Below are positions 12,827 through 29,444 of a stretch of 64,000 bases of DNA, piece after piece. The stretch lies in NCBI GenBank assembly GCA_028277985.1, contig JANQFG010000229.1, positions 1 through 64,000 of the forward strand. The letters are read 5' to 3'. The position numbers were made by a program, and so were the translations under genes. The stretch's first letter is position 1; the number at the start of each line of letters is the position of its first letter. Source of the stretch: a bacterium. GTDB taxonomy: Bacteria > Desulfobacterota > DSWW01. The notes under the pieces are model-generated. The model did no database searches, had not been told where the DNA came from, and saw only the letters and a program-made list of their open reading frames with translations.

Positions 12827-14245
12827 CTATCCCGCCTGCTTCTCCGCCTGGATCTTCTTCAGCTTCTTCCACAGGTCTTCGACCTGTTTCTCTGTCTCTG
12901 CCAGATCCTTCTCGTTGTTGATCACGAAGTCGGCGAAACCGACCTTCTCATCGATGGGGAGCTGGGCGTCGAGAATGCGCCCCGCCTCCACCTTGGTGAT
13001 GCTGTCCCGCTCTACCAAGCGCTCGACCTGGGTTTCTCTCGGCGTGTAGACGAGCAGGATCTTGTGAAACAGATGCTGCAAGTTCGCCTCGACCAGAAGC
13101 GGGACCCCGACCTGGATGATCGCATTCGGATCGGCCGCTGCGATCTCGGTGGCCTTCTGGAAGAACTCGACGCCGATCTGCGGGTGAGTGAAGCTCTCGA
13201 GCTTCTTCCTCTTCTCCATGTCCTGGAACACGATGTCCGAAAGCTTCTTCCTGTCGATGGTCCCGTCTTCGGCAAGAACCTGCTCACCGAAGAAGGCCTT
13301 GATCTGCTCGTAGGCCGGCTTTCCGGGCTCCACCACCTCTCGGGCCAGGACGTCGAAATCGATGAGCGGCGCTCCAAGCTCTTCGAGCATCTTCGAAACG
13401 GTGCTCTTTCCGGTTGCGATCCCTCCGGTCACTCCGAGAAGGAGCCGGTTATCGTTACCGCGCAGGGCCTCCAATTGCTCGATGCCTCCGTATGCCGCAG
13501 GAAAGGCCTTGGTCACGTCCGACTCGGCGCCCGCATAACTGATCGGATAGCGGATGCCTCTTCGGTAAAGCATCTCCAGGCCGCGCAACGCTTTGTCCAT
13601 CATTCCGGCCGGGATGGCCATCACCAGGTCTTCATCCTGGGCGTGCCCGTACCGTCGTTCCCCGTAACAGGGAATCGTCATGGAGGGCTTGCCGGTGAGA
13701 TAGCATTTTGCGATTGCATCCGAGCAGGAGGATTCTCCTACGCAGGAAAACTCCATGACTTCATAGTCCTCGAACTGGAGAGCGTTGATCAGTAGGATCA
13801 TCTGGGCAGGGTTAGCGTATATCAGAACGATATCCGGATCAAAGGGATTGTATACCAGCGGGGCCATGACCACGGCTTCGTACTTGCCGAGGGGAATCCT
13901 GGGAATCGAGGCTTCGAATTTCTTTCCGTCTTCCTTGGTCTGTACCCATACGATGCTCCGGAAGGTCCCATCCTTGACCGCGTCCGGGATATCGGTCAGG
14001 CCGATGATGGAGGGGCACATGGGAGAGAGGAAATTGTCCAGATCTGCTCCGACGGTCCAGTCGAAGTTCCTGACGAGCGTGATCATCTGGCACATGGTCA
14101 TCTTGTTTTCCGGCCTTCGCATGAAGGGAATCTCGCTCAAGGCCTCCTTGTTCTCCAGCATCTTGAAGGCCACCGGGAAGGACTTGAGCCTCAGCAGGAG
14201 CTCCATCCTTCGAATCGGTTTCTCCCAGTCCCGTGCCGTTGCCAT
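12827..14245 (-). CDS. coaE: DUF169 domain fused to dephospho-CoA kinase
   Basis: A 472-residue fusion. Residues 1 to about 250 match DUF169 (COG2043-type): VAFKMLENKEAL, CQMITLVRNFDW, a central EFSCVGESSCSDAI and IPCYGERRYGHAQDED. Residues about 267-472 are a complete dephospho-CoA kinase with P-loop GVTGGIATGKS (271-281), the IDFDVLAREVVEPG substrate region, THPQI and VGVPLLVEANL. CoaE carries out the last step of CoA synthesis and is normally about 200 residues and free-standing. No stop or frameshift separates the two parts. DUF169 proteins are poorly understood and cysteine-containing. The gene is convergent with the Cache-AlbA_2 gene. Confidence 0.88.
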   Translation of the reverse strand: MATARDWEKPIRRMELLLRLKSFPVAFKMLENKEALSEIPFMRRPENKMTMCQMITLVRNFDWTVGADLDNFLSPMCPSIIGLTDIPDAVKDGTFRSIVWVQTKEDGKKFEASIPRIPLGKYEAVVMAPLVYNPFDPDIVLIYANPAQMILLINALQFEDYEVMEFSCVGESSCSDAIAKCYLTGKPSMTIPCYGERRYGHAQDEDLVMAIPAGMMDKALRGLEMLYRRGIRYPISYAGAESDVTKAFPAAYGGIEQLEALRGNDNRLLLGVTGGIATGKSTVSKMLEELGAPLIDFDVLAREVVEPGKPAYEQIKAFFGEQVLAEDGTIDRKKLSDIVFQDMEKRKKLESFTHPQIGVEFFQKATEIAAADPNAIIQVGVPLLVEANLQHLFHKILLVYTPRETQVERLVERDSITKVEAGRILDAQLPIDEKVGFADFVINNEKDLAETEKQVEDLWKKLKKIQAEKQAG

Positions 14246-14299: not shown

Positions 14300-15481
14300 C
14301 TATGACTCCGAAGGCCCGGCCCCGATCTGCTTCACTCCCTGAAAGGTAATGGGCGAATACGCGCCACTTTTCAATGCCTCGACCAGATCCTGTTCGTTCC
14401 TGATCTCTTCATAGAACTCGGTAGCATACATCCCGACCTCTTCCACCTCGTGTGCGTCGCTGCCTCCGGTGCCTGAAAGGCCGAGACCTTCTGTGACGGT
14501 CAGCGCGAAATCGTTCTCCTTATCCGTGACCTTCCCGTTCAGGATCTCGACGGCATCCACGTAGTTGAAAAGCGGCCGCTCCATCGCTTTCTCCGGAGTC
14601 AGACCAGCCTCGTCGACGCCGACCACGAGAAAACCGCGAAAGGGGTGAGCCACGATCATGAAACCGTTCGCCTCGTCCACTTCTCGCCGTAGCTCCTTCA
14701 GGTCGATGATTCCCTGAATGTTTTTGTCGAGACCGAACACAAGGACGTCCCCCTGGTTCGTGGTGATTTCATTGCCCCTGAGGACCAGAAACCCATGCTT
14801 CTGCCGCAACTCCTCCACCCGGGTCGCGTCCCAGACGTGATTATGGTCGGTCAGACAGATCCCGTCCAGGCCGATTCTCTTCGCCTCTTCGATCAGCGCG
14901 TCCACCGAGGCGGAACTGCATGGTGAAGCGGGAGATGTGTGAACGTGTAAATCGATCGTCATCGTTTTCGTCGAGCAGTTCCTGTCCGGCTTGCGAATGG
15001 GTTTTGAGCGAGGCCTGGGCACCTCCTCTGCCGGGGTGGACTCGACGGCAAGCGGCGTTTCCCCCAGAGGGGCCGCCTCCTGACGGTATTCCTCCAACTC
15101 GAGGTCCGGGTTCTCGGTCTTTGCCTTCTGCCAGTCGAGGACGCTCACGGCCTCTTTGGTGGAGTGGCAACACTCGAGCAGAAGGTTTGCGAAATGTCGG
15201 CAGCCCTTTCGACCGATCACCTTGTGCACCTTCGGGCCAAACCCCTCCTCTCCGATCCGGAACCCGACCGCCTCTTGAAGCGGCTGGATGGCCCGCGGGC
15301 ATCCCGGCGTGGTCCACCTGTGCCACCTTCCTACTATGCTCAGTATTTCCAGGTCGGCGATCCGTATCTCGAGATCGAGTTCCACACTGTAGATATCGTC
15401 GTCCAGGATGCCGTGAACGGCAAAGGTGTCCATGTCTTTCAGGCTGACGTCCACAATCTTGTTCCGCGCGAACTTGAGCAT
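14300..15481 (-). CDS. DUF2889 domain fused to PHP-type metallophosphoesterase
   Basis: A 393-residue fusion. Residues 1 to about 130 resemble DUF2889 (MLKFARNKIVDVSLKDMDTF, IADLEILSIVGRWHRW, GCRHFANLLLECCHS). A linker rich in Pro and Glu leads to a PHP domain from about residue 174, with metal ligands HVHTS (179-183), TDHNH (211-215), IVAHPFRG and SGTGGSDAHE. PHP domains hydrolyse phosphate esters. An internal ATG at residue 174 could start a PHP-only product, but the frame is continuous. The next upstream gene, three bases away, encodes a DUF2889 protein, so the DUF2889 part is duplicated here. Confidence 0.8.
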   Translation of the reverse strand: MLKFARNKIVDVSLKDMDTFAVHGILDDDIYSVELDLEIRIADLEILSIVGRWHRWTTPGCPRAIQPLQEAVGFRIGEEGFGPKVHKVIGRKGCRHFANLLLECCHSTKEAVSVLDWQKAKTENPDLELEEYRQEAAPLGETPLAVESTPAEEVPRPRSKPIRKPDRNCSTKTMTIDLHVHTSPASPCSSASVDALIEEAKRIGLDGICLTDHNHVWDATRVEELRQKHGFLVLRGNEITTNQGDVLVFGLDKNIQGIIDLKELRREVDEANGFMIVAHPFRGFLVVGVDEAGLTPEKAMERPLFNYVDAVEILNGKVTDKENDFALTVTEGLGLSGTGGSDAHEVEEVGMYATEFYEEIRNEQDLVEALKSGAYSPITFQGVKQIGAGPSES

Positions 15482-15484
15482 GAT

Positions 15485-16000
15485 TCAATGATCTCCCTGA
15501 TCCTGTGGGGGCTCGATCCCCTCCACCATTGGGCTTCCCGGTGCGAAAGCGGCGCAGCGGTTGTAGAGTCGGATGTTCTGCTTGACCATCTCTCGGTAGA
15601 ATTCGGCCGGGACCTCCGAGCCCGGGGGGGCGGCAGCGAGCTGGTCCCTGGTCATGGACAGGATGACCCCGTGGCAGCATTCCTCCACCATGAAGGCAAG
15701 CTGGCTGCAGGTTGAGACCTCTCCGATCAGGCCCTTGATGATCTTGAGCATGCCAGAGCCGATCCGGACCCCGATCATCTTGTCGAGCGCTTCCTTTGTC
15801 CGGAGACATTCTCTTTCCGGGGTGCGAAGGAACTCTGCCGTTGCGGCCGCGATTTCGAGATCCGGCAACCGTACTCGAATCTCGACCCGGGCATCCGTGC
15901 GTGTGTCTTGAAGACGGCAGGTGGACCTGAGGTTTTTGTCATCGAGCACTTCCACGGAGGTGCATCGATTGCGGGAGAAACAGGTGATGTTCGGCGGCAT
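15485..16000 (-). CDS. DUF2889 family protein
   Basis: A 171-residue protein with the DUF2889 pattern seen in the N-terminus of the downstream PHP fusion: FSRNRCTSVEVLDDKNLRST, a VRLPDLEIAAATAEFLRTP segment, and SQLAFMVEECCHGVI, which parallels ANLLLECCHSTKEAV of its neighbour. The ATG at 16000 is chosen for the TAAGGAG upstream; the frame is open for 23 more codons. Function is unknown. The three-base gap to the PHP fusion implies co-transcription. Confidence 0.75.
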   Translation of the reverse strand: MPPNITCFSRNRCTSVEVLDDKNLRSTCRLQDTRTDARVEIRVRLPDLEIAAATAEFLRTPERECLRTKEALDKMIGVRIGSGMLKIIKGLIGEVSTCSQLAFMVEECCHGVILSMTRDQLAAAPPGSEVPAEFYREMVKQNIRLYNRCAAFAPGSPMVEGIEPPQDQGDH

Positions 16001-16442
16001 GTCGAGGAGCTCCTTACAGGGTTTGCTCAGGCCTGCGTGGTGCGGGCGAGAAAGAGAGCAGGTTACCATAATCGCGGGACAACGAAAAGCATTCGACCGT
16101 GGAGTCCATTCGCAACGATGAAGATCTCCTACTTAGTACAAGGGTATGCTTTTGCTCACGAACGAACACACGCCTGCTGGCCTGTCAGAAGAAACCTCTG
16201 TATGATAAGCGCGGATATCCACTGGGCTGCAGCCAATCCGCTACTACGGCATTCCCGTCGCCACCTGAGAATTGTGGGGACAGGCTCCGGCGGAAGTCCC
16301 TCATCACATTGAGCTAGGGGGCTGCCACGCTTCGCTCGCAGCATCCCATGTGAGGGACATTGCGAGGAGGCGAAGCCGACGCGGCAATCCCCCGCCACGG
16401 AAGTCGGGGTGCCCAGGACGAACCAGGAGGAAAGGGGAAGGA
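16001..16442. other. Gene-free stretch before the selenoprotein gene
   Basis: No convincing coding frame with a ribosome-binding site was found here. It must hold the divergent promoters for the DUF2889 gene (minus) and the reductase gene (plus). Its distal part contains a short palindromic repeat (16354-16393). No tRNA fold was recognised. Confidence 0.5.
16354..16393. repeat. Interspersed palindromic repeat (ATTGCGAGG...GCAAT type)
   Basis: The segment reads GGGACATTGCGAGG, then GGCGAAGCCGAC, then GCGGCAATCCCCC. The ends (ATTGC/GCAAT, with flanking GGG/CCC) are inverted. This matches a dispersed GC-rich repeat of the ATTGCGAGG-GAAGC-GCAATC type that I recall from many bacterial genomes. 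Only one clear copy was seen in the window. Confidence 0.55.
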
Positions 16443-17804
16443 ATGCCAAGAAGACCAAGGCTTATCATCGTTGGAGGTTCTGCAGCCGGTCCGAGTGCGG
16501 CTGCAAAGGCGAAGAGAGTCAACCCGGATCTGGAAGTCATGATCTTTGAGCAGGGGGACTTCGTCTCCTATGGCTCTTGAGAGACCCCCTACTACATCGG
16601 TGATGTAGTCAAGGATCACGAGACGCTGCTGGTGAGAAGGCCGGAGGAGTTCAAGGAGAAACAGGGGATCGATGTCTTCCTGCGGCACAAGGTGAACAAG
16701 TTGGATCCGACGACCCGGAAGGTCGAGGTCGAAGATCTGGAGGAGGGCGAGAAGAAGATCCTGGATTTTGACAAGGCCGTTGTGGCCTCCGGCGCTCGAT
16801 CCCGTAGACTGGGTATTCCCGGCGAGGAAGCGCCGAATCTGTTCACCCTCAAGGATCTCGGAGATGCCATTCGTGTGAAGCAGTACCTGGATCAGAAGCG
16901 TCCGAGTCGGGTGGCCATTCTCGGGAGCGGTTACATCGGGCTGGAGATGGCCGAGGCGTTTCGAGAGAGGGGGCTGGAGACGACCATCTACTACAGGGGC
17001 ACACGACCTGTTTCCCATCTGGAACCGGAAATCAGCGAGGCGGTGTTACGGGAGCTGGAGGAGAAGGGTGTCGAGTTCCTTCAGGAACACGCACCGGTCG
17101 CGCTTCACAAGAACGGAGGCGAGGAGATTGCGGCCCTGGAGACGTCCAAGGGGCGGTACCCCGTGGACCTGGTTTTGAGTGCCTTGGGGGTTGTGCCGAA
17201 CGCCGAGATCGCTCACGAAGCCGGCCTTCGGATCGGCAGGACAGGCGCGATCTGGACCGATCCCGGACAGAAGACGGATCATCCGGACATCTATGCCGCC
17301 GGAGACTGTTGTGAGGTTCAGCATCAGATCCTCGATGACTTGGTCTATATGCCTCTCGGCGATGTGGCGAACAAGCAGGGCAGGGTGGCGGGCGAGAACG
17401 CTGCGGGCGGGCAGGCGACCTTCGATGGTGTGATCGGGTCGATGTGCTTCCAGGTCTTTTCGCTGGAGGTCGCGACCACGGGGCTCACGGAAAACTCGGC
17501 CAAGGACAAGGGGCTGGACGTGGGCGTGCAGAAGATCAAGGCATCTTCCAAAGTACACTACATGCCGGGCGCCAAGCCGCTCGAGTTGAAGATCGTCTTT
17601 GAAAGGCCTTCCGGCAGGCTCCTGGGCGGGCACATGGCGGGCAAGGAAGGTGTAGCGAGGCGGATCAACACCCTGGCCGTGGCGGTCCAGAGCCGGATGA
17701 CGGTGCAGGCCCTGTCGAGGATGGATTTTGCCTATGCGCCCCAGTTCTCGGCCCCCTTCGATCCGATTCTGATCGCGGCCGAGCAAGCACTGAAGAAGCT
17801 CTAG
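16443..17804 (+). CDS. CoA-disulfide reductase-like flavoprotein with predicted selenocysteine (in-frame TGA at 16578-16580)
   Basis: The frame from ATG 16443 is interrupted only by TGA at codon 46; reading through gives 453 residues. Before the TGA is the FAD-binding start (LIIVGGSAAGPSAAAKAKR, about 7-25) and IFEQGDFVSYGS. After it come ETPYYIGDVVKD and VRRPEEF. In CoA-disulfide reductases/NADH oxidases this site reads ...C-x-x-P-Y-x-I-G with the redox-active Cys about residue 43, so the TGA sits exactly at that cysteine. The NAD(P)H-binding motif VAILGSGYIGLEMAEAF and FAD motif IYAAGDCCEVQHQI are intact, and a C-terminal dimerisation domain is present. A perfect hairpin starts 11 nt after the TGA. 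The likely role is NAD(P)H-dependent disulfide, persulfide or peroxide reduction. The start has GGAGGAAAGGGG upstream. Confidence 0.88.
16581..16610 (+). promoter_or_regulatory. Bacterial SECIS-like hairpin after the in-frame TGA
   Basis: ACTACATC (16591-16598) and GATGTAGT (16602-16609) pair perfectly over 8 bp around the loop GGT (16599-16601). The loop begins 18 nt after the TGA. A short stem just 3' of UGA with a small G/U-containing apical loop at about this distance fits the general bacterial SECIS description. The hairpin lies inside the coding sequence, as expected for bacteria. Confidence 0.75.
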
Positions 17805-17830: not shown

Positions 17831-19168
17831 ATGTGTGACACCTTCGTAGTCCTGCCGCCGTATACATCCGACGGGTCCGTGATCTTCGGTAAGAACAGCG
17901 ACCGTGAGCCGAACGAAGCCCAGGCCCTGGAATTCCACCCTGCGGTTTCTCATCCTGCCGGAGAGACGGTGAAGTGCACGTACCTGGAAATTCCGCAGGT
18001 GAGGGAGACCCACGCCGTGCTTCTCAGCCGCCCTTTCTGGATGTGGGGTGCGGAGATGGGTGCGAACGAGAAGGGGGTGGTCATCGGCAACGAGGCGGTC
18101 TTCACCAAGATGCCGCTCGACAGGAAGCCCGGCCTGATCGGGATGGACATGCTGCGCCTTGCCCTGGAGAGAGCGGACACGGCAGACCAGGCGGTGGAGA
18201 CCATGATTCAACTTCTGGCCGACCACGGACAGGGAGGGCTCTGCGGGTACGAGGACAAGCGGTTGACCTATCACAACAGCTTCATCTGTGCGGATCCGGA
18301 GGGGGCATGGATATTGGAGACCGCCGGTCCGTTCTGGGTCAGACGGAGGGTGGATGGATTTGCGTCGATCAGCAATGGTCTCACCACCGGTGAGGCGTTC
18401 GATGCCTGCCACCCGGATGCGATCGAAACCGCGAGACAGAAAGGTTGGCTCAAATCGCGGGAGGCGTTTGATTTCTCCAAGTGTTTCTCAGACTGGTTCT
18501 ACACGACCTTTTCAGCCTGTCGCAACAGGCAGGGCCGCTCCTTCGGACTGATTGGCAAAGCGGAAGCCGAAAAGAACGGGCAGGGGATCGACGTTCCCTA
18601 TGCCCTGAGCGTCCTCAGGGATCATGGGGGAGACGGTTATCGTCCGGACGGACATCTTCTGTGTGATCGGCTGTGCGCCCACGCAGCAAACAAGCTCTCT
18701 CGGAACGCGACCCAGTCGACCGGGTCCCTGGTTGCACACCTGAAACGTGACCTCCATTCCTTCTGGGCCACAGGCACATCCGCACCATGCACCGGGATCT
18801 TCAAGCCACTCTGGTTCGGTCCGGGCCCCCTGGAGGATCCCGGTCCGGCGCCGGGAGCTACCTTTCACCCCGATGCTCTGTGGTGGCGGCACGAGATGCT
18901 TCACCGGAGCGTCCTGCTCGACTACCCTGCCCGGATCGATGCCTACTCGGATGAGCGCGATGCCCTCGAGCGAGAGTTCTTCGACCAGGCGGGCCGGGTG
19001 CGGCAGGAAGAGCGGTCGGAACTGAGCCGGAACGCCTTCGCGCGCGCACGTGATGCAGTTGACCGCTGGACCGATCGGGTTCGGTCTGTTCCGATCCAAG
19101 GCCGGACCGGCTGGATCTATCGCCGCTACTGGGCAGGCCAGAACCGCAGAGCAGGCATCCGGGTCTGA
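17831..19168 (+). CDS. C69-family peptidase (secernin/dipeptidase-like Ntn hydrolase)
   Basis: A 445-residue protein beginning MCDTFVVLPPYTSDGSVIFG, where Cys2 is the likely N-terminal nucleophile, followed by KNSDREPNEAQ. These features fit the C69 peptidase/secernin branch of Ntn hydrolases. Further family-like segments are WMWGAEMGANEKGVVIGNEAVFT and AWILETAGPFWVRRRVDGFASISN. The absence of a long signal peptide and the nucleophile at position 2 suggest a cytoplasmic enzyme processed only by methionine removal. It may hydrolyse dipeptides or another amide. It starts 26 bp after the reductase gene, so co-transcription is likely. Confidence 0.82.
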   Translation: MCDTFVVLPPYTSDGSVIFGKNSDREPNEAQALEFHPAVSHPAGETVKCTYLEIPQVRETHAVLLSRPFWMWGAEMGANEKGVVIGNEAVFTKMPLDRKPGLIGMDMLRLALERADTADQAVETMIQLLADHGQGGLCGYEDKRLTYHNSFICADPEGAWILETAGPFWVRRRVDGFASISNGLTTGEAFDACHPDAIETARQKGWLKSREAFDFSKCFSDWFYTTFSACRNRQGRSFGLIGKAEAEKNGQGIDVPYALSVLRDHGGDGYRPDGHLLCDRLCAHAANKLSRNATQSTGSLVAHLKRDLHSFWATGTSAPCTGIFKPLWFGPGPLEDPGPAPGATFHPDALWWRHEMLHRSVLLDYPARIDAYSDERDALEREFFDQAGRVRQEERSELSRNAFARARDAVDRWTDRVRSVPIQGRTGWIYRRYWAGQNRRAGIRV

Positions 19169-29186: not shown

Positions 29187-29315
29187 CTTCTGCTCTCCTC
29201 TAGAGGCGGGCGATGAGGGAGTATCCCTTCTCGGCAGCCTCCAACGGGGTGTGCTCGACACCCTCCTTCATGGGTGCAAGAAATGAAACCTTATCCGTTC
29301 GTGCGCTATGTGACT

Positions 29316-29397
29316 GGCAGCCCGGCGATCTCGGAGGGTGAAGCCGAGGAAGGGGAGACCCGTGGCTTTCCGACCCGGCCTCACGGCCGGTGTGGCT
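29316..29397 (-). ncRNA. Cyclic-di-GMP-I (GEMM-I) riboswitch
   Basis: On the minus strand the element has a P2 stem CCGGCC/GGCCGG capped by the GNRA tetraloop GTGA, then GGTCGGAAAGCCACGGG, resembling the GEMM-I core GGGACGCAAAGCCaCGGG. The P3 partner GATCGCCGGGCTGCC resembles the 3' half AGcCGGGcUGCC. The order and spacing fit the cyclic-di-GMP-I class (some relatives bind cGAMP). It sits about 50 nt after the predicted transcript start and about 130 nt before the MopE-like start codon. Whether it activates or represses is not evident. Confidence 0.82.
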
Positions 29398-29444
29398 TTT
29401 TCTTGTCTCCAGACAGAGAGGGATATATGTAAAGAAACAAGTTA

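Follow-up and report, generated by a model that had tools for sequence, protein, structure and literature searches.

Selenocysteine (Sec) forms of the flavoenzyme family that comprises CoA-disulfide reductase, NADH oxidase and persulfide reductase have been known since 2006, when one was tabulated as an 'NADH oxidase' of Geobacter metallireducens (Zhang et al., 2006; PMC1794560). A single occurrence of the Sec form in ocean metagenomes followed in 2008 (PMC2398784), and recent reviews name it 'CoA-disulfide reductase', with the motif UGxP and the G. metallireducens protein accession WP_011365774.1 (PMC9312934, PMC13188914). The gene described here, which lies in a 64,000-nucleotide stretch of a Desulfobacterota draft genome (contig JANQFG010000229.1; hereafter the window), is an additional member. 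Its product shares with the Geobacter Sec protein (COG0446) the flavoenzyme family and a Sec motif (U before xxP) compatible with the position of the redox Cys. In place of the published UGxP, members of the window lineage usually carry U-[E/D/S/P/L]-x-P before YYIGD, and they share a Sec insertion element (SECIS) at +18 nt; the two are set apart by the published motif description, and we infer that Sec was acquired separately in each.

Reading frame and catalytic column

The selenoprotein gene forms one frame of 453 residues ending in TAG, in which TGA at codon 46, flanked by VSYGS on the N-terminal side and ETPYYIGDVV on the C-terminal side, is the sole internal stop (Table 1). Translation thereby bore out the preliminary description, which had also expected automatic gene callers to split or truncate the gene: an ordinary ORF search returned only a 102-aa ORF stopping at the TGA and a 390-aa ORF from GTG 16632, the latter lacking the FAD-binding GGSAAG motif that lies 5' of the TGA. 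The Pfam domain Pyr_redox_2 spans the TGA (residues 6–294, E 1.2e-58) and Pyr_redox_dim covers residues 338–436; with matches on both sides of the TGA, the N- and C-terminal parts make up one protein.

Table 1. Features of the selenoprotein locus and its surroundings (window coordinates)
Feature	Position	Strand	Evidence
AGGAGG ribosome-binding site, 12 bases 5' of the ATG	16425..16430	+	read directly in sequence
Selenoprotein gene: 453-residue FAD/NAD(P)H-dependent disulfide-reductase-like enzyme, predicted Sec46	16443..17804	+	translation, domain and profile matches, structure homologues
N-terminal FAD-binding glycine motif GGSAAG	16473..16490	+	translation; Pyr_redox_2 match begins at residue 6
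TGA predicted to be read as selenocysteine, redox-active Cys column	16578..16580	+	frame translation, alignments
SECIS hairpin ACUACAUC / GGU / GAUGUAGU	16591..16609	+	8 Watson-Crick pairs; folding, covariation, bSECIS constraints
C45/C69-like Ntn hydrolase gene, 26 bases downstream of the selenoprotein gene	17831..19168	+	ORF list, domain/profile matches
DUF169-dephospho-CoA kinase (CoaE) fusion	12827..14245	-	
Two adjoining DUF2889-type proteins	14300..16069	-	
c-di-GMP-I-GGC riboswitch aptamer	29312..29405	-	Rfam RF03167, 62 bits

The TGA occupies the place of the redox-active Cys, as had been proposed. Residue 46 aligned to the catalytic Cys column of homologues and to the Cys before x-x-P-Y in the solved enzymes (Thermus NADH oxidase 6ruz, NoxA-3 6pfz, and the CoA-disulfide reductases 4fx9 and 3kd9). 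This column was divided equally among 56 aligned genes, the window gene included, with TGA in 28 and Cys in 28. The reading frame, the retention of TGA at the Cys column, a covarying SECIS and the presence of selA, selB and selD were established computationally, and together they support the earlier proposal that codon 46 is read as Sec. We consider it very likely that this codon encodes selenocysteine at the active site, the actual insertion of Sec into the protein being predicted from sequence.

Enzyme family and predicted substrate

With high confidence in Sec46, we regard the window protein as homologous to the single-cysteine pyridine-nucleotide-disulfide oxidoreductases, with Sec in place of the redox Cys. 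It resembles CoA-disulfide reductase (TIGR03385, NF007123; 4fx9, 3kd9, 1yqz) in domain order, length, active-site column and full-length alignment, but has Sec for Cys and does not reach either curated cut-off (TIGR03385, 406.3 bits vs 578.8; NF007123, 405.7 bits vs 458). The label of CoA-disulfide reductase initially given to it therefore stands as a family resemblance and not as an identity. The cut-off of the H2O-forming NADH oxidase model NF046103 was not reached either (262.1 bits vs 600). Thermus NADH oxidase 6ruz is the closest solved sequence, aligning over residues 6–449, but it carries Cys where the window protein has Sec, and the likeness is one of sequence, not of functional equivalence. 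The same flavoenzyme core is found in CoA-persulfide reductase with a C-terminal rhodanese domain (8a56; 3ntd group), a domain that the window protein lacks. The same genome also encodes a paralogue (L016) that has Cys and a rhodanese domain; it is 36% identical to the window protein and shows that the Sec enzyme is not the sole member of the group there.

The window protein probably works like the CoA-disulfide reductase/NADH oxidase group, and among predicted substrates one of the disulfide or persulfide type is somewhat favoured. Judging from the family, NAD(P)H would supply electrons to FAD and, through it, to the Sec46 selenolate. The selenolate would in turn reduce a disulfide, persulfide or polysulfide of low molecular weight via a selenenylsulfide. 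A possible but rather doubtful alternative, which touches the substrate and not the Sec reading, is a Sec flavin NADH oxidase/peroxidase that cycles via selenenic acid. The best solved relative is indeed an NADH oxidase (6ruz, 8.5e-106) and the literature names the family both ways, but the CoA-disulfide reductase models score higher (406 bits) than the H2O-forming NADH oxidase model (262), and a CoaE (CoA synthesis) fusion gene 2.2 kb away gives a hint, though only a hint, in the direction of reduction of a disulfide or persulfide.

Genomic neighbourhood

The selenoprotein gene and the C45/C69-like Ntn hydrolase gene that follows it are possibly co-transcribed. Their adjacency was seen within the genus only, and none of four neighbour genes tested occurred in the 1.5-kb flanks of the loci from other families. 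The DUF169-CoaE fusion is a single 472-aa frame with a counterpart at the same place in a same-genus genome, and the gene order of the two DUF2889-type proteins, one with a fused PHP domain, is kept in the congener. Apart from the riboswitch aptamer, nothing in the window matched Rfam over threshold. No convincing second selenoprotein was seen when the other TGA-interrupted frames of the window were scanned by eye.

Selenocysteine machinery and an additional tRNA

The preliminary description had pointed to the sel genes elsewhere in the genome as a check on the Sec reading. Three of them exceeded their cut-offs in the window's own genome, at 593 bits for selA, 372 for selB and 392 for selD. 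The selD gene (L149:4881-5810; G000:C19) itself encodes a selenoprotein, with TGA in the GGUACK motif, giving a second and independent instance of Sec use here. The 8.85 Mb draft was also searched for canonical selC (UCA), with the Rfam model (150 of 1357 candidates scored), with a tRNA-Sec pattern, and by BLAST, whether the query was the congener's gene or the 3 kb around it; none of these searches recovered it. An initial selC pattern with three mismatches returned only chance matches and ordinary tRNAs. Both congeners, one of them with the same TGA gene, have tRNA-Sec(UCA); in each it lies on a short contig, near the contig end, with a tRNA-Thr-Tyr-Gly-Thr cluster some 2 kb away. Such a cluster usually precedes tufB. 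The window's genome (stated completeness of the assembly 95.7%, contamination 7.9%) yielded one EF-Tu gene, via the selB search, that reaches the contig end with no tRNA cluster on its contig. Because the congeners' selC lies by the tRNA cluster near contig ends and the EF-Tu gene found here is at a contig end, we infer that the missing selC is an assembly gap, the second tuf region and selC having not been assembled or binned.

The only match over threshold to the tRNA-Sec model in the window's genome (47.2 bits) was an extra tRNA-Cys(GCA) (L001 1501-1592; G000:C46:27654-27745), encoded in addition to an ordinary tRNA-Cys(GCA). Its variable arm is long, and U73 precedes a CCA that is encoded in the gene. 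In these features and in its Cys anticodon it is like the selC-like tRNA-Cys of Mukai et al. (2017; as summarised in PMC7609411), which is also characterised by an 8/4 acceptor branch and an A51a bulge, with a selB-like gene downstream in some groups. The acceptor stem of the L001 tRNA has eight positions with a U-U mismatch, the T stem is apparently of 5 bp, and no selB was present within 1.1 kb downstream, up to the contig end. The same locus holds a long near-perfect inverted repeat (L001:115-168; GGGGTCAGGGCTACACTCTTGACAAG and its complement) that gave only a sub-threshold miRNA match.

According to the summary in PMC7609411, selC-like tRNA-Cys with an opal anticodon is reported from some deltaproteobacteria, and such a tRNA could decode the TGA as cysteine. 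The extra tRNA and the absence of canonical selC from the draft would fit this, but the GCA anticodon reads UGC/UGU and cannot read UGA, and the L001 tRNA does not, for this reason, explain the window gene. No UCA version of it was found, a supposed second SelB (L007) was rejected as EF-Tu, and the congeners have a normal tRNA-Sec(UCA), leaving decoding as cysteine highly improbable and selenocysteine the preferred reading of the TGA.

The SECIS hairpin

Selenocysteine would be inserted during translation when SelB with Sec-tRNA binds the hairpin just 3' of the UGA. The published bacterial SECIS (bSECIS) model has a 3–9 nt loop with G within the first two positions, an upper stem of 4–16 bp, and a distance of 16–37 nt after the UGA (PMC13188914). 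The window hairpin fits this model with 8 bp and a GGU apical loop that begins 18 nt past the UGA, and every TGA gene (n = 28) had a hairpin inside the constraints, weak in the case of L064. In 23 of the 28 TGA genes the same 3-nt loop is closed by at least seven Watson-Crick pairs, vs 0.3 genes expected from synonymous codon draws counting Watson-Crick pairs only. Two further genes (L122 and L051) form the +18 hairpin using a G-U pair and another (L133) forms it with the loop widened to 5 nt, bringing the shared placement to 26/28. A synonymous-codon null with G-U pairs allowed gave 18% and was replaced by the Watson-Crick-only null, being uninformative because the encoded peptide itself favours a hairpin.

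With 26 distinct sequences compared, 95% of cells are paired. Changes on both sides occur at three stem pairs, in 13 cells altogether, a number reached in none of 500 shuffles; slid versions of the structure failed the covariation test. Some compensation alters the protein: the third base of the Tyr codon (TAC/TAT) varies together with Val/Ile across the stem, and in L127 a change of Tyr to His is accompanied by GTA to GTG. GTA, a rare codon that accounts for 8% of those for Val in a count over eight window genes, stands at the stem in 24 of the 28 TGA genes. In the same structural scan most Cys homologues had no SECIS-type hairpin; a few have unrelated stems elsewhere (L137, L143) or a weak G-U-rich stem (L142), as chance allows. 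Folded singly, the window sequence was unremarkable (z -1.4), and its hairpin would arise under synonymous codons alone with a chance of 1–3%. We therefore take the evidential weight of the hairpin to lie in the comparison across genes and not in the single sequence.

Conservation of the TGA among relatives

Among 395 sampled genomes of the phylum, all 23 top-scoring matches contained exactly one TGA, as did, by our own count, about 54 of the roughly 130 matches listed, the position of the TGA itself being checked in 28 genes. A same-genus genome has TGA at the identical codon in a protein of 78% identity. Protein conservation was unbroken across codons 46–63 in the homologue alignments. This continuity bears on whether the locus makes not one protein but two, either separately or by re-initiation: a short peptide of 45 residues and, starting at GTG 16632, a protein of 390 aa. 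Both are listed by the ORF finder, but the 390-aa form would be without the FAD-binding N-terminus common to homologues and conservation runs continuously through the region between them, making two products extremely improbable. The last alternative, a pseudogene or a TGA that is a sequencing error for TGC/TGT (the assembly is a draft and one base change would yield Cys), has next to no probability left and appears already refuted by the comparative data, since the same TGA recurs at 27 other loci in separately assembled genomes from about 14 families, which excludes sequencing error, and since a conserved SECIS and purifying selection on both sides of codon 46 (dN/dS vs the congener 0.03 over the 45 codons before the TGA, with dS saturated, and 0.11 over the 407 codons after it) argue against a pseudogene.

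Evolution of Sec and Cys forms

A quick, midpoint-rooted tree was built without the Sec/Cys column, from loci picked by similarity to the window and with groups named by the Sec/Cys trait itself, and on it five Sec/Cys changes were needed, four of them forced by well-supported branches. Holding all Sec rows together was rejected (AU p 0.0002; p 1e-8 leaving out L064). One strongly supported clade comprised 26 Sec rows and two Cys rows (L026 and L140). The widespread lineage that includes the window gene has the loop at +18 nt from the UGA and the SECIS-shaped peptide YYIGD. The nested L026 and L140 have no SECIS-type hairpin, and L140 retains YYIGD, perhaps as a relic; the two are best read as reversions to Cys in which the hairpin was lost. 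Two further Sec genes, L059 and L064 (both 1501-2832), fall outside the main clade, with hairpins at +22 and +27, not +18, that of L064 being weak (P 0.16). These positions suggest separate SECIS origins. We consider it rather probable that Sec and Cys were swapped several times in the family, with SECIS arising more than once and L026 and L140 reverting.

Significance

What is new in this long-known family is a broadly distributed Sec lineage whose SECIS is conserved, along with evidence for several Sec/Cys changes, with hairpins at differing places. As gene callers drop the FAD-binding N-terminus together with the active-site residue, a large group of these proteins in the phylum is likely mis-annotated. 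The family is a natural experiment in which close Sec and Cys enzymes, repeated switches and traceable gain and loss of SECIS occur together, and pairs of Sec and Cys enzymes would permit a direct test of the contribution of selenium to a disulfide-reducing flavoenzyme.
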